A stretch of 32,267 nucleotides of DNA from Candidatus Peregrinibacteria bacterium GW2011_GWF2_43_17 (lineage in GTDB: Bacteria > Patescibacteriota > Gracilibacteria > UBA1369 > UBA12470): contig LCFW01000011.1 in NCBI GenBank assembly GCA_000999315.1, forward strand, positions 1 to 32,267. Reading direction: 5' to 3'. The translations under genes were made by a program, and so were the position numbers. Position 1 is the first letter of the stretch; every line of letters begins with the position of its first letter. Below the pieces are notes generated by a model. It saw only the letters and a program-made list of their open reading frames with translations, was not told the origin of the DNA and ran no database searches. Shown here piece after piece: positions 436 to 27,853 of this stretch.

Positions 436-1962
436 TCAATCTTGCGGTAAGGAAACATTTAAGAAAGTTGTACCATCCTCCGAATCCCAAAATCCAAAAG
501 ATGCTCGATCACCAATAACAATAGAAGCACCGGGATCATCATCAATGAATTTATCATTATCCAATTCGGCCATTCTCATCCTCACATCGCCTTGAGCTCC
601 TTCCAGCAAAACTTTTTTTCCGGAATCCATATCTGCAATCGCGTAAAATTCACCGGAATCGAGAAGTATTATATTGCTGGAATCAACCTCGCCACCCAAA
701 TCATAAGTTTTACTCAAAACCTCTCCGGTATTTAAATCCAAAACATAAAAACAATAGCCATCATGCACAACCATATGCCCATCACTATTTACATTGCTAA
801 AACCAAATAGACCACTCTGTAATTTCAACTTAGTCTCCATTTCACCCATCATGTTTTTACCAACATCAAAATATTGTATTACCACTTGCCCATCCGGAAA
901 ACCCCAAGGGACCATCCATACCTTATTGTCATAAACAGCTGTTTTGTTGATACCGCCGATTGCACCCACCTTCCACGATACAATTTCGGAAAACTGACCG
1001 CTGACCAAATCAAGCTCGATTAATTTCAAATCATAATCTTTAGATGCCACCATATAAATACCCCTATCGGATTCGGAAAAACTAAACAAATTTAAATCCC
1101 ATCCTTCCTCCATATCGAAGCTATACTCTTGAACTTCACCTCCTTCCGCCTCCAACGACAATCGGAAACCACCATTATAAGTGTATGCAATTAATTTCAG
1201 GAGTCCGGATTCCGTCAATATAAGATCGCTAAATCCATTATCTTCTCCGTTTGCATTATAAAAACCTCGAGTTGTTTCAATCTGAGAATAAGCGGGAACA
1301 AGCATATCGCCGGTTTGAACCTTCGCCCGATTAACCGATCTTGTTAACCCCTCTTCCCCCAAAAAAGTTAAAGGACTAATCCCCCATGTTGATATTGTTT
1401 CAGCATAGTGTTCCTCAGGTCCCGCACATGCATAGAAGCTTACACATTGATCGTCCAAATCAACACCCGACACGGACTCGCCCTGATATATCCCATGATA
1501 ATTAATATCGGCAAAATCATCTTTCCATTCGGGCCAACCCATTTCCCCATAATCTGCTTGACCATGAGTAAATTCGTGAAAAACAGCACGATCAAAAAGA
1601 TTCTGTTGGAATCCGAAGGTATCTTCCGGAATATAAACAGTATCAACAGTATCATAAGAAGCCGCCGCATCATTACTATTTTTCGTTCTCTCCGCGAACT
1701 CCCGATCACTCAAAGCAACCATACTGTCAACCGGACACGTCAAAGTTTGATAAACCGATTCTCCGTGTTCCACAGCCGCTTCTATCTTCTCTTTTATTGA
1801 AAGGGTGGATGTACTTACAGTTTGATTACTTATTTCGGGCACACCACAAGCATTCTCAAAATTAGCACATCCCGCAGATACACCACTAGCCAATAGAGCA
1901 CTGCCCAATAACAACAATCCCTTTTTACCATCATGCGGATTTTCATCATACGGATTTTTCAT
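436..1962 (-). CDS. Predicted lipoprotein with HExxH metallopeptidase motif and C-terminal beta-rich domain
   Basis: 508 residues from the ATG at 1962. This start is preferred to the longer frame opening at 2154 because the extra 64 codons come from a hairpin element and read as low-complexity translation. Residues 15-31 form a hydrophobic signal segment followed by a lipobox-like S-A-G-C (Cys32), so it is probably lipid-anchored on the outer face of the membrane. An HEFTH motif (His129-Glu130-His133) with an acidic/His segment 'PEEHYAET' about 50 residues later resembles a zinc gluzincin site, with Glu184 or Glu188 as possible third ligand. From about residue 220 to the end the protein is a series of short beta-rich repeats ('SDLILTESGLLKLIAY', 'VLDLNTGEVLSKTYDLGG') that suggest a beta-propeller. 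The substrate is unknown. Stop codon is TGA. Confidence 0.7.
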   Translation of the reverse strand: MKNPYDENPHDGKKGLLLLGSALLASGVSAGCANFENACGVPEISNQTVSTSTLSIKEKIEAAVEHGESVYQTLTCPVDSMVALSDREFAERTKNSNDAAASYDTVDTVYIPEDTFGFQQNLFDRAVFHEFTHGQADYGEMGWPEWKDDFADINYHGIYQGESVSGVDLDDQCVSFYACAGPEEHYAETISTWGISPLTFLGEEGLTRSVNRAKVQTGDMLVPAYSQIETTRGFYNANGEDNGFSDLILTESGLLKLIAYTYNGGFRLSLEAEGGEVQEYSFDMEEGWDLNLFSFSESDRGIYMVASKDYDLKLIELDLVSGQFSEIVSWKVGAIGGINKTAVYDNKVWMVPWGFPDGQVVIQYFDVGKNMMGEMETKLKLQSGLFGFSNVNSDGHMVVHDGYCFYVLDLNTGEVLSKTYDLGGEVDSSNIILLDSGEFYAIADMDSGKKVLLEGAQGDVRMRMAELDNDKFIDDDPGASIVIGDRASFGFWDSEDGTTFLNVSLPQD

Positions 1963-2023
1963 TTTTGCAAATTCTACGTGTATTATAACACATTTCGGCA
2001 AGCACGACAAATGACCACACAGG

Positions 2024-2138
2024 GGGAAAAAATAACTATTTTGCAAATATCTGCAATGCTCCTGCTTTTCTGAAGTCGTACATGCTAGACTGAAGAAAAT
2101 AGGAAATGAAGCCGTTTGCAAAATAGTTATTTTCTCCC
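2024..2138. repeat. Structured hairpin element, copy 1 (locus-specific stem around a conserved core)
   Basis: Outer arms 2024-2047 and 2115-2138 are complementary over 24 bp with one mismatch. The right arm contains the rlmN stop codon (2127-2129). The roughly 67-nt core (2048-2114) matches the core at 16247-16311 at about 77% by eye. Inside the core are a middle stem (TTTTCT / AGAAAA), an inner stem (AGTC / GACT) and a 10-nt apical loop GTACATGCTA. It sits between rlmN and the lipoprotein gene, both minus strand, so it would appear in the RNA as the 3' end of rlmN mRNA. Confidence 0.75.
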
Positions 2139-3137
2139 TGCCAACTGCCCGCACGCCGCATCAATACTTTGCCCCAAACTAACCCTCACCGTAACCGGCA
2201 CACGATAAGTCTCGACAATCCTTTTGAACTCTTCAACCTTCTGATCCCTCGATCTTCTGAACTTCGTCTTATCCGTAAAATTATAAGGGATCAAATTCAC
2301 ATGACAAAGCCTCCCTTTAAGCAATTTTCCCAATTCATGAGCCAAACTCAAACTATCGTTTACACCGGCAAGCATCACGTACTCATAAGAAATCCTTCGG
2401 TGAGTTTTATCGGTATACTCTTTCAAAGCATCCATCAGCTCGATCAAAGGATATTTCTTAGCGATAGGCACCAACTCCTGACGCAACTCCTGATTCGGCG
2501 CATGCAAAGAAATCGCCAAATTAACCTGTAAATCTTCGGGAATTAATTGCAAAATCCCCGGGATCACACCCGCAGTCGACAAAGTAATATTCCTCGCCCC
2601 CAAATTCATGCCCCGACTATCATTTAAATGCCTGCAAGCGCGAAGAACATTTTCATAATTATTAAAAGGTTCACCCATCCCCATAAAAACAACATTTGTT
2701 ATCTCCTCCTCCGAATCCAAAACGAAATACAAAACCTGATCCGCTATCTCTTCATAACTCAAACTTCTTTTAAACCCCATCTTCCCCGTAGCGCAAAAAA
2801 CGCATTTAACCGCACACCCAACTTGAGAAGAAACACAAACCGTCCTTCTCCCATCCCTGAATCTCATCAAAACTGACTCGATCTTTTTACCATCTTTTTT
2901 ACATCTAAATAAAATTTTGCGCACGGAACCATCAGGAGTAATCGAAACATGCTTCTCTTCTATAGATAAAACCGGAACCTTCTCCGACAAAACATCCCGA
3001 AGTCCTTGCGGCAAATTGATCATTTGCGAATAATCGGCAATACCTTTCTTAAAAACATCATGCAAAACTTGGCTCGCCCTAAAAGGCGGATGCCCCGCAT
3101 TCTCCAATATTGAAACCAACTCTGCGTAATCTTTCAT
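2127..3137 (-). CDS. rlmN: 23S rRNA (adenine2503-C2)-methyltransferase RlmN
   Basis: 336-residue radical-SAM enzyme that methylates C2 of A2503 in 23S rRNA, and in some bacteria also A37 of certain tRNAs. The iron-sulfur motif CxxxCxxC is Cys108, Cys112 and Cys115 in 'CVSSQVGCAVKCVFCATGK'. The conserved C-terminal 'DAACGQL' supplies the catalytic methyl-carrier cysteine (Cys329). The SAM-binding stretch 'NVVFMGMGEPFNNYENVL' is intact. Length is slightly shorter than E. coli RlmN but normal for the family. Its target segment is present in the 23S gene of this same window. No Shine-Dalgarno motif precedes the ATG. The last codons and stop form one arm of structured element copy 1. Confidence 0.96.
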   Translation of the reverse strand: MKDYAELVSILENAGHPPFRASQVLHDVFKKGIADYSQMINLPQGLRDVLSEKVPVLSIEEKHVSITPDGSVRKILFRCKKDGKKIESVLMRFRDGRRTVCVSSQVGCAVKCVFCATGKMGFKRSLSYEEIADQVLYFVLDSEEEITNVVFMGMGEPFNNYENVLRACRHLNDSRGMNLGARNITLSTAGVIPGILQLIPEDLQVNLAISLHAPNQELRQELVPIAKKYPLIELMDALKEYTDKTHRRISYEYVMLAGVNDSLSLAHELGKLLKGRLCHVNLIPYNFTDKTKFRRSRDQKVEEFKRIVETYRVPVTVRVSLGQSIDAACGQLAGRK

Positions 3138-15187: not shown

Positions 15188-16216
15188 TTACAATCCTTTT
15201 CTGTATTTAAACTTGTCGTACTCATCTTCATACGCAGGATCGCTTACTTTTCTAAACCCGGCCTTTTCATGAGCTCTAACAGAAGCAATATTACTTCTGC
15301 TAATTGTAGCAATTAAAAATTCCAATCCGGTTTTCTCAAGCAAAACTTGATAAAATTTCGAAGGTAATCCCCTACCACGATATTTTGGATCAACAACGAT
15401 ATGGGTAATATTTTTCTCACTATCGGTATCATAGACACCTACAACCCCAAGCTTTTCCCCATTCTCACCGATAACAATATAATATCTCTGATTTCTACAA
15501 TTCTCCATCCCTAAAGCAATCCATCCGTCAGTTCCTTCCAACTGATAAAAATAATCCATATCGCCCTTCGGATTAAAATCATGGAGCTCCAATTTGCCGA
15601 AATCACTTTCTTGCAGACCTTCAATATTCTCTCTCATTCTATTCCCAAAACCATTTCTTTCATCGGCAACATCGCTATCTTTAACCAAAATCGAATAACC
15701 CGTTTCAGATAAATGCTTTATACGACCATTATCTTTTTGTATTAAATCCGCAAATTCGGGATATGGAACCTTTCTATACCCTTTCTCAACAGCATAACCA
15801 TGCATCGTTTTCGTAACAGAAACCAGAATCGACCTCGGATCATTCTTCATAATATCAGACTCCAAATTCGAAACGATATCATCACCGACTCTAAATCCGC
15901 GATGAGAAGGCAAAACAACTATCCGTCGCCACTCACAAACCGGAGCACCATCCTTGGTAACTCCATCAACCTCCCACATACCAAAACCTATCAACTTATC
16001 ACCATCAAAAACCAATACGGTTTTTGGATCCTTAACAGCTCTTGAAAAAATCTCACGCACATCACCCCTTTCTTTATTCGCTTCTTCAGGAGTATCAGAA
16101 ACGGAATCAACATAGCAATCCGCAATTCGGTTAACAACATCTTCAGACAAGCTTACGTCGAGCCCACCCCTCATAACGGATACACTATCCGGATTTTTTA
16201 GCACATCATTTCCCAT
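15188..16216 (-). CDS. Tandem GNAT acetyltransferase-like protein
   Basis: 342 residues with two GNAT-like halves. The first (about 15-160) has 'RRIVVLPSHRGFRVGDDIVS' with the acetyl-CoA pyrophosphate loop RGFRVG. The second (about 190-342) has 'THIVVDPKYRGRGLPSKFY' (RGRGL) and the typical end 'NIASVRAHEKAGFRKV'. The second half is the better match; the first may be structural or act on a different substrate. The substrate is unknown. Its start is 4 bp from structured element copy 2, and it is convergent with the cysteine-rich gene. Confidence 0.82.
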   Translation of the reverse strand: MGNDVLKNPDSVSVMRGGLDVSLSEDVVNRIADCYVDSVSDTPEEANKERGDVREIFSRAVKDPKTVLVFDGDKLIGFGMWEVDGVTKDGAPVCEWRRIVVLPSHRGFRVGDDIVSNLESDIMKNDPRSILVSVTKTMHGYAVEKGYRKVPYPEFADLIQKDNGRIKHLSETGYSILVKDSDVADERNGFGNRMRENIEGLQESDFGKLELHDFNPKGDMDYFYQLEGTDGWIALGMENCRNQRYYIVIGENGEKLGVVGVYDTDSEKNITHIVVDPKYRGRGLPSKFYQVLLEKTGLEFLIATISRSNIASVRAHEKAGFRKVSDPAYEDEYDKFKYRKGL

Positions 16217-16219
16217 TCA

Positions 16220-16339
16220 AAGCGTTTAATTACTTTCGAAATAAACATCTGCAGTGATCCTCGTTTCTCGAAGGCGTACACGATAGCCTGAGAGAAACAG
16301 GAAACGAAGCCGTTTATAAGAAAGTAATTAAATGCGCTT
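16220..16339. repeat. Structured hairpin element, copy 2
   Basis: Outer arms 16220-16237 and 16320-16339 pair over 18 bp with a 2-nt bulge, extended by TAAAC / GTTTA (16242-16246 / 16312-16316). The right arm contains the TAA stop (16328-16330) of the phosphatase gene. The core (16247-16311) aligns with copy 1 at about 77%; middle stem TTTCTC/GAGAAA and inner stem AGGC/GCCT differ from copy 1 by compensatory changes, and the apical loop is GTACACGATA. Confidence 0.75.
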
Positions 16340-17911
16340 CACCACAACTATCGTCATATCATCCGCCTGTTTCGCCTTCCCCATAAACTCCTTCACATCC
16401 GCCAAAAGCGCATTTTTGATACCGTCGGAAGTAACCAAATCGCAATACTCCGAAACGGCTCGTTTGAACATCGGCATCCCGTATTGTTCATCTTTCATAT
16501 TCCTCGCTTCGGGCATCCCATCGCTATAAATTATTAGCACGTCGCCGGTCCTCATCGAAACCTCAACCTCATTCAAAGTTTTCCCTATATCCTCAACCAT
16601 CCCAAGCGCGATACCGCCCGTCGGCATCTCCTCGACCTTCTTTTCCGCCGCATTGAATTTCAAAATCTGATTATGACCAGCGCTGATATAGCGCAACACG
16701 CCGGTTTTCTCATCTATGCTCGCAAGCGCCATCGTCATAAACATATTTGCGGCAGTTTTTTCATTCAAAATATCATTCACATTGATCAATATATCTTTGG
16801 AATCAGAGGTAAAATTCGTCGCACTATAAAGCAAAGCATTCGCGACCGAAGCAACTATTCCGGCCGGCACACCGTGACCCGTCACATCGCCAAGATACAA
16901 ATAAAATCGTCCGTCTTTGGTTTTTATAAAATCATAACAATCCCCTCCAACTTCATCCGCAGGTATCAACCCGCCAGTAATATCAAACCCGACAACTGAA
17001 GGCTTTCCCTTGGGCAAAATCTCTTTCTGAATTCTACTGGCAAGCTCGAGCTCTTTCGCAACCCTCTCCTTATAAACAAGTGCTTTCGTACTCACTTCAA
17101 GATCGGATGCCATCTTATTAAAAGCTTTTGACAGAACACCGAGCTCATCATTGCTTTTCACAACCACTCTCGAAGCGAAATCTCCCGTCGCGATTTTCAA
17201 AACTCCCATCTCAAGCGCCTTAACCGGCTTAACTACCGAAGATGCCATTGAAAAACTCAAGAAAAACGCCACCACGACACCAAGCAACATCAAAATCAAA
17301 ATCCTGGTCTTTGTCGCATCTATTCTCGACTGCAAATTTTCATAAGAAATATCGTAAATAACCGCATATTTCCCATCATAAGGATAAACTATATTCGATA
17401 CCCTATCCGCCTCCGTAATCCCCTCCTCCAAAACATTCTCGTTTTGATCCACAAAATACTCATTCCCATCAGCATCTTCTTTGATATAAACGATACTTCC
17501 GTCCTCAAGCAAATAAGATGAGTTCGCGGCCTTAATTCTATCCGTCATCCACGATTCGCTAACCGTTCTCTCATCACCCGTATATTGCGCAACCTCTTCC
17601 GTTTCCGAATCATATAAAACCTCTCCGGCATAAGTCGCAAGATAAATTCTGTCCACATCATCATTTTTCTTAAAAATCTCTTTTATCTCTCTATTAAAAT
17701 TTAAAAATCCGTCCTGCTCCAAATAATTTTGGCTCAAGAGAACTATATCCTCAGCGGTAAGCTCGGAAAAGCTTTTCGCGTTCCTGTAAATATCATGCGA
17801 AAGTTCGAGTGATTTCTCCTTTAAAAGCATAAAACCCGTAAGCCCGAAAAGGAGCACTATCAGCACCGAAACAACCGCTATGAATTTGGTCTTTAGGGAA
17901 TAAAAAAACAT
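16328..17911 (-). CDS. Membrane-bound HAMP / PP2C-type (SpoIIE/RsbU) serine phosphatase
   Basis: 527 residues. Transmembrane segment 9-30, an extracytoplasmic sensor region about 31-200, second transmembrane segment about 203-225, HAMP about 224-277, then a SpoIIE/RsbU phosphatase domain from about 280 to the end. Metal-binding aspartates are in 'VGGDCYDF' (Asp324) and 'GDVTGHGVPAG' (Asp342), and 'DVLIIYSDGMPEARN' is also conserved. In known systems such proteins dephosphorylate anti-sigma antagonists in partner-switching. No STAS or RsbW-like gene is in this window. A good promoter with a palindrome precedes it; its stop codon lies in element copy 2. Confidence 0.93.
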   Translation of the reverse strand: MFFYSLKTKFIAVVSVLIVLLFGLTGFMLLKEKSLELSHDIYRNAKSFSELTAEDIVLLSQNYLEQDGFLNFNREIKEIFKKNDDVDRIYLATYAGEVLYDSETEEVAQYTGDERTVSESWMTDRIKAANSSYLLEDGSIVYIKEDADGNEYFVDQNENVLEEGITEADRVSNIVYPYDGKYAVIYDISYENLQSRIDATKTRILILMLLGVVVAFFLSFSMASSVVKPVKALEMGVLKIATGDFASRVVVKSNDELGVLSKAFNKMASDLEVSTKALVYKERVAKELELASRIQKEILPKGKPSVVGFDITGGLIPADEVGGDCYDFIKTKDGRFYLYLGDVTGHGVPAGIVASVANALLYSATNFTSDSKDILINVNDILNEKTAANMFMTMALASIDEKTGVLRYISAGHNQILKFNAAEKKVEEMPTGGIALGMVEDIGKTLNEVEVSMRTGDVLIIYSDGMPEARNMKDEQYGMPMFKRAVSEYCDLVTSDGIKNALLADVKEFMGKAKQADDMTIVVVKRI

Positions 17912-24451: not shown

Positions 24452-24472
24452 GTTAAGTAATAAAAAAGGCAT

Positions 24473-24594
<122 letters not shown>

Positions 24595-24628
24595 TACCTT
24601 TTTTTGGAAAAGAACAATTTCTATAAAA

Positions 24629-24705
24629 TATCAGACAAAAAGTTTTCTATCGTTCAGTGACAAAGGCCATATGCGCCCTCGTCACTGACGAAAGATAAGG
24701 AAGTT
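24629..24705 (-). other. 23S-5S spacer with processing stem
   Basis: TATCAGACAAAAAG (24629-24642) is exactly complementary to CTTTTTGTCTGATA at 27753-27766, so the 23S is bracketed by a 14-bp stem like the RNase III processing stems of other bacteria. The spacer also holds a hairpin (GTCACTGA arms around 24655-24690). Confidence 0.7.
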
Positions 24706-27742
<3,037 letters not shown>

Positions 27743-27853
27743 GACTTCCTCACTTTTTGTCTGATAACTTACAGAAAGATTATCAGGCAAAAATAAAAAT
27801 ATTTTTTAAACTTAACTTAATTCTACTTGATTGCCGTTTTCCATTACTTAACG

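Follow-up and report, generated by a model that had tools for sequence, protein, structure and literature searches.

In this study, we showed that two hairpins in the genome of Candidatus Peregrinibacteria bacterium GW2011_GWF2_43_17 belong to a dispersed family of DNA palindromes located just behind genes, in which the core is conserved while the two long outer arms differ from locus to locus and yet remain almost perfectly matched to each other within most copies. This pattern is best explained by the DNA copying one arm from the other. The analyzed window was the complete stretch of 32,267 nucleotides of contig LCFW01000011.1, and the two elements lie at 2024-2138 (element 1) and 16220-16339 (element 2). 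No description of this family was found in the literature. The features of the two loci are as follows.

2045..2117, minus strand: core of element 1, a hairpin with conserved internal loops (covariance model positions 1-73)
2118..2138, minus strand: gene-side arm of element 1 (GGGAGAAAATAACTATTTTGC), comprising the last codons and stop TAA of rlmN plus 9 nt
2024..2044, minus strand: far arm of element 1 (GCAAAATAGTTATTTTTTCCC), the complement of the gene end with one G.U
2127..3137, minus strand: upstream gene rlmN (radical SAM, RlmN_N)
1982..2010, minus strand: sigma-70-like promoter match (TTGTCG-17-TATAAT) between element 1 and the next gene, about as frequent by chance
436..1962, minus strand: next gene downstream of element 1 (508 aa, no Pfam match)
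16243..16315, minus strand: core of element 2
16320..16339, minus strand: gene-side arm of element 2, comprising the last codons and stop TAA of the phosphatase gene plus flank
16220..16238, minus strand: far arm of element 2
16328..17911, minus strand: upstream gene encoding a HAMP + SpoIIE (PP2C-type) phosphatase
15188..16216, minus strand: next gene downstream of element 2, encoding a GNAT acetyltransferase whose ATG lies 3-4 nt beyond the far arm

To verify the two hairpins, we examined their sequences and compared their folding with that of dinucleotide shuffles. Element 1 has 24-nt arms (2024-2047/2115-2138) that are 96% complementary with 67 nt between them, and it folded far better than the shuffles as DNA (z -6.2) and as RNA (z -7.2), with 0/200 shuffles as stable. 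Element 2 has a stem of about 18 bp with one A.C mismatch and a small bulge, and also folded far better than the shuffles (DNA z -6.0, RNA z -5.4). The two cores aligned at 75-80% identity. The initial annotation had described compensatory changes in the middle stem (TTTTCT/AGAAAA versus TTTCTC/GAGAAA) and the inner stem (AGTC/GACT versus AGGC/GCCT), a conserved apical loop GTACAYGMTA, and an outer stem in which one arm is the end of the upstream gene with its stop codon; all of these were correct, with the stop codons of rlmN (2127-2129) and of the phosphatase gene (16328-16330) lying inside the gene-side arms. The observation made in the initial annotation is therefore confirmed. Its statement that the outer stems are unrelated between loci needs a slight correction, since a weak family resemblance remains among arms of different loci (z 3.5-5.7).

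To determine whether further copies exist, and whether their outer arms are complementary, which had been set beforehand as the points on which the observation would stand or fall, we first performed a BLAST search with the core of element 2, which found further copies in the genome. We then built a covariance model from seven cores, in which 13 of 24 pairs were changed on both sides (0/500 shuffles). The model found 16 loci in this 1.2-Mb genome (G000), of which the weakest have E values of 0.03-0.1 but carry 18-bp stems, about 12 loci in G001 and 8 in G002, the other two members of its family (family f1). Elements 1 and 2 scored E 2.4e-22 and 1.5e-24, respectively, but both were among the sequences from which the model was built and match by construction. 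Hits in the remaining order-level genomes of that draw were weak. A palindrome scan of 432 kb (the window plus a 400-kb sample of the genome) added two more copies and gave 13 long inverted repeats against 0 in a shuffle. On 35 aligned cores, 22 of 24 pairs showed double changes, with 181 doubly changed cells against 51 in shuffles (0/500 shuffles); that alignment was fitted to the model and leans towards the structure, but the slid controls were far lower. Searches against Rfam (release 15) gave no match over the elements at the gathering score, and permissive scans gave only chance-type hits, such as plant miRNA precursors, far below their cut-offs. A search of phage records gave no match and a search of viral contigs gave 0 hits.

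We next examined the anatomy of the copies. On the strand of the upstream gene, the core reads GGC[T/A]TC[G/A][C/T]TT ... hairpin ... [A/G][C/T]TGC[A/T]GAT, with a third type GTCCTC ... CTGCGGA, and the pair at positions 8/66 occurs as T-A, A-T and C-G. By eye, a TC/TC mismatch usually separates the core from the outer stem. The results showed that 27 of 36 single-hairpin copies had a complementary outer stem (score 12 or more), whereas control pairs of arms from different loci had a mean score of 6.7 and a maximum of 14. Both conditions set beforehand as refuting the observation therefore failed, as there are many more copies and most have complementary outer arms. The stem ended 18-23 nt from the core in 24 of 27 copies, corresponding to about two helical turns. 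The core began 9-25 nt behind a gene 3' end in most copies, and 23-24 nt behind the tRNA in all five copies with a detected tRNA, in the sense of the gene in those cases; the sense orientation behind genes and tRNAs held in nearly all copies of this family. The 10 nt behind the stem were 49% T, against 31-38% at 20-60 nt (Fisher p 2.8e-6) and 23% on the other side.

These features support a rival explanation, that the element is a functional RNA 3'-end structure (a terminator or exonuclease barrier) whose outer stem is held by ordinary compensatory selection, without any copying at the DNA level. The fixed sense orientation, the stem of about two helical turns, the T-rich tail on the sense side only, the strong covariation and the very stable folds are all in its favor. 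To test this, we counted mismatches, since selection on the sense RNA should make G.U outnumber A.C on that strand. The results showed 17 G.U and 17 A.C in the cores, and 17 and 23, respectively, in the arms, indicating that the sense RNA alone does not explain the pairing. The 25-32-bp stems without mismatch in a related genus, the concerted stop-codon and indel changes, the core inversions and the decaying inverted copies of coding sequence described below also argue against it, and we consider this explanation unlikely as a full account. Compared with intrinsic (Rho-independent) terminators, the elements share a stem-loop just behind the stop codon or tRNA and a T-rich tail on the sense side, but they are about 115 nt long, with an AT-rich stem at the base, a conserved core with internal loops and a T tail of mixed composition rather than a canonical GC stem with a run of T. 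Canonical terminators were found at only 14 of 362 gene ends in this genome, too few to assess whether the element replaces them. The promoter-like match between element 1 and the next gene would fit a terminator-then-promoter arrangement, but 1 was found with 0.8 expected.

To identify related elements more widely, we scanned 84,980 species genomes for the apical hairpin. This gave 11 stretches, all from Peregrinibacteria or Peribacteria. Within the order, 12 of 89 genomes matched TCGNNCTARCATGTACGNNCTC, with one match for the reversed control. Relatives with the same CTARCATGTACG hairpin occur in two more families (Peribacteria/Peregrinibacteria). In those other families the element is larger than the single hairpin of the window's family, with a long outer stem enclosing a three-way junction with two CATG-loop hairpins, hairpin A (CTAACATGTACG) and hairpin B (a CATG loop), the second of which aligned poorly.

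To investigate how the arms change over time, we compared orthologous sites in four species (G034, G121, G110 and G189) of one genus, g30. At gene A, whose C-terminus RQGLI* is the same in all four, three species carry an element whose arms differ in 9 to 17 aligned columns between species but have one mismatch within each, while the fourth is empty. Because G189 appears closest to G110 (gatA 92% identical), this is probably a loss. Beyond the stem lies a decayed inverted copy of the native gene end. At gatA/Y, the arms are perfect in G110 (25 bp) and G189 (31 bp) although they differ in 15 of 32 aligned columns, and in G034 and G121 half of the element has been replaced by another hairpin. 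At X/Y and at clpP-like/Z, both arms changed together, including both genes' stop codons (TAA/TAG) at clpP/Z, and the core is inverted between G110 and G121. At the G121_C15 locus (contig C15 of G121), G110 holds half a core in the opposite orientation between similar arms, and G189 holds a half core plus a nested different hairpin. Thus, arms alike within each copy but divergent between orthologues were found at four loci, and inversion of the core between conserved arms at three. In addition, G110 (contig C2, stretch L254) and G189 (contig C14, stretch L253) carry a different hairpin element, with a core starting CGATTCTGTTC and about 27-bp near-perfect arms AAGAAGGGGTGGGAATAT.., nested inside the loop region of an older element. 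Across copies, 9 of 38 showed a decayed inverted copy beyond the stem above the 99% control. The concerted evolution and the core inversion were seen in another family (f14) of the same order and not directly in the window's own family, whose relatives are too diverged; for the most diverged arms (gene A, G034 against G121), reinsertion of a new element at the same site is not strictly excluded.

We also found one clean insertion, of about 160 bp upstream of dnaJ on contig C11 of G034. In the three sister species the site is closed, the 32-bp arms are not there, and no clear target-site duplication was seen. A CIRCE-like GGCACT-N9-AGTGC site lies upstream of dnaJ in G034 (stretch L175, around 4100) and its orthologues, directly beside this insertion.

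To establish the direction of copying in the window's own family, we examined the end of rlmN. Its C-terminus LAG[RK]K* is native, being also present in a relative without the element, indicating that the gene-side arm of element 1 is native and the far arm must be the copy. The orthologous sites of elements 1 and 2 in G001 and G002 were too diverged to align, except that only the left half of an element remains behind rlmN in G002 (stretch L085), showing decay of an element at the same gene end as element 1.

The initial annotation offered two alternatives for the outer stem, and its interpretation is partly supported. The first, that insertion copies flanking DNA in inverted form, is half right: the far arm is an inverted copy of native gene-end sequence at rlmN, at gene A and at gatA/Y, but the one clean insertion brought arms that are absent from the empty sites, suggesting that copying is a continuing arm-to-arm process rather than the insertion step itself. 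The second, that the stem evolves to embrace the gene end as an RNA structure, is weakened by the lack of any G.U over A.C excess and by the core inversions, but helped by the fixed sense orientation, the 18-23-nt stem and the T-rich tail in the window's family.

Taken together, we interpret these elements, with moderate confidence, as copies of a palindromic DNA repeat without a protein gene (REP/MITE-like), found so far only in Peregrinibacteria/Peribacteria. In this view, the arms are kept identical, and rewritten over evolution, by replication template switching across the hairpin: the nascent strand would fold back through the core and copy one arm to replace the other. Where one arm overlaps coding sequence it could not drift freely, so it would act as template and the non-coding arm would become its inverted copy; the same process would invert the core. 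Concerted arm change together with spacer inversion is the published signature of template switching between inverted repeats (PMC8604942, PMC8794818). In the window's family, the element is probably used as a sense-oriented transcription terminator or mRNA 3'-end structure. Our analysis shows the family, its structure, position and orientation, the concerted arm change, the core inversion, the inverted copies of native gene ends and one recent insertion with empty sites, whereas template switching as the agent, terminator activity (deduced from position, stability and the T-rich tail only), mobility and an enzyme that moves the element are inferred. Two features do not fit template switching alone. 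The stems of the window's family end sharply 18-23 nt from the core with no decayed extension, whereas a purely mutational copying process should give variable lengths, so some selection or an enzymatic ruler is likely; and the fixed sense orientation calls for an RNA-level or transcription-coupled role. If this reading is correct, the family offers a natural, many-copy series in which template switching, usually seen as rare mutations, appears to build and repair long perfect hairpins repeatedly and to rewrite gene ends, including stop codons. This bears on the open question of how long RNA and DNA stems keep perfect pairing, and the core inversions and empty sites in one genus make the process directly testable. 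It also provides a first repeat family for a little-studied candidate-phyla group, with possible terminator function.

A second rival is a mobile element whose insertion step itself produces an inverted copy of about 20 nt of target DNA, for example by ssDNA or hairpin-end transposition with snap-back synthesis. In its boldest form, this would be a new type of mobile element that seeks gene 3' ends in the sense orientation and creates, during its own insertion or replication, an inverted copy of the host gene's end, so that every copy is born with a perfect stem made from its host gene. Six near-identical cores (about 93% or more, by eye) at unrelated gene ends with unrelated arms in G001, as well as the tight 18-23-nt ruler and the gene-end targeting, are in its favor. 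This recent spread means either core movement followed by arm making or core conversion among elements, which we could not separate. The arms of the one clean insertion, the weak family resemblance among arms and the absence of an associated Y1/RAYT transposase argue against it, and we regard both forms as doubtful. A search for the Y1 transposase (PF01797) found none in G000, G002, G110, G121, G189, G210 or G027, and no association with IS200/RAYT mobilization was seen.

A third possibility, which we consider very unlikely, is that a conserved core inserts into, or is swapped by gene conversion between, pre-existing long palindromes at gene ends. Different core types at the same gene end in different genera (G0_C6_98139 against G2_C7_23391) and nested and half elements are consistent with it. 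However, empty long AT-rich palindromes are rare, with few simple hairpins with stems of 12 or more in 432 kb, and the orthologous empty sites showed no long palindrome.

We then compared the elements with known systems. The family is ordinary in being a palindromic repeat behind genes, but unusual in its locus-specific, self-matching arms and in the clear traces of arm-to-arm copying. REP/BIME elements and RAYT-mobilized repeats (PMC2817692, PMC12306157) are likewise short dispersed palindromes without a protein gene behind genes, but REPs have one consensus stem, whereas here the outer stem differs at each locus and only the core is conserved, and this genome has no Y1/RAYT gene. Quasipalindrome correction or template-switch mutation (PMC8794818, PMC8604942, PMC7202029) shows the same arm homogenization, multi-base concerted changes and spacer inversion, but is known as sporadic mutations at unrelated sites, while here it appears tied to one recurrent element family across a bacterial order. 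MITEs and fold-back elements share the non-coding palindrome with long inverted arms, dispersed copies and empty sites, but the arms here differ almost completely between copies. Integron attC sites are also imperfect palindromes just behind a gene with structure more conserved than sequence, but we saw no conserved R-box arms by eye (RYYYAAC/GTTRRRY), and the elements occupy single chromosomal gene ends without a cassette array. Coding palindromes in Nematomorpha mitochondria (PMC6649704) are perfect inverted repeats overlapping coding sequence, but they occur in organelle genomes and are embedded within genes, with no shared core reported in the abstract.

Other repeats were observed in the sequences examined. 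Two elements of G001 (stretches L051, 1669-1872, and L055, 1830-2058) carry the same insertion of roughly 150 bp in the apical part (GCAATAGGGTTTTGCTTCATT...), one of them in a tandem duplication, representing a nested repeat. A second dispersed, MITE-like repeat of about 120-130 bp bounded by GTCCGACAATGAA inverted ends had three near-identical copies in 400 kb (L067:7216-7332, L068:16485-16606 and L081:19462-19591; contigs C2 and C7 of G000). Two related long hairpins of another type (GGTTAAAGA..AAAT arms, core with GTACC.GTTGGTACG) with similar flanks lie at L074:5872-5975 and L076:8151-8254, and a perfect 25-bp palindrome with a 7-nt loop and no core lies at L064:4064-4120. Within the window, long near-perfect stems flank the 5S and 23S rRNA (24462-24604 and 24618-27777), as expected for rRNA processing.
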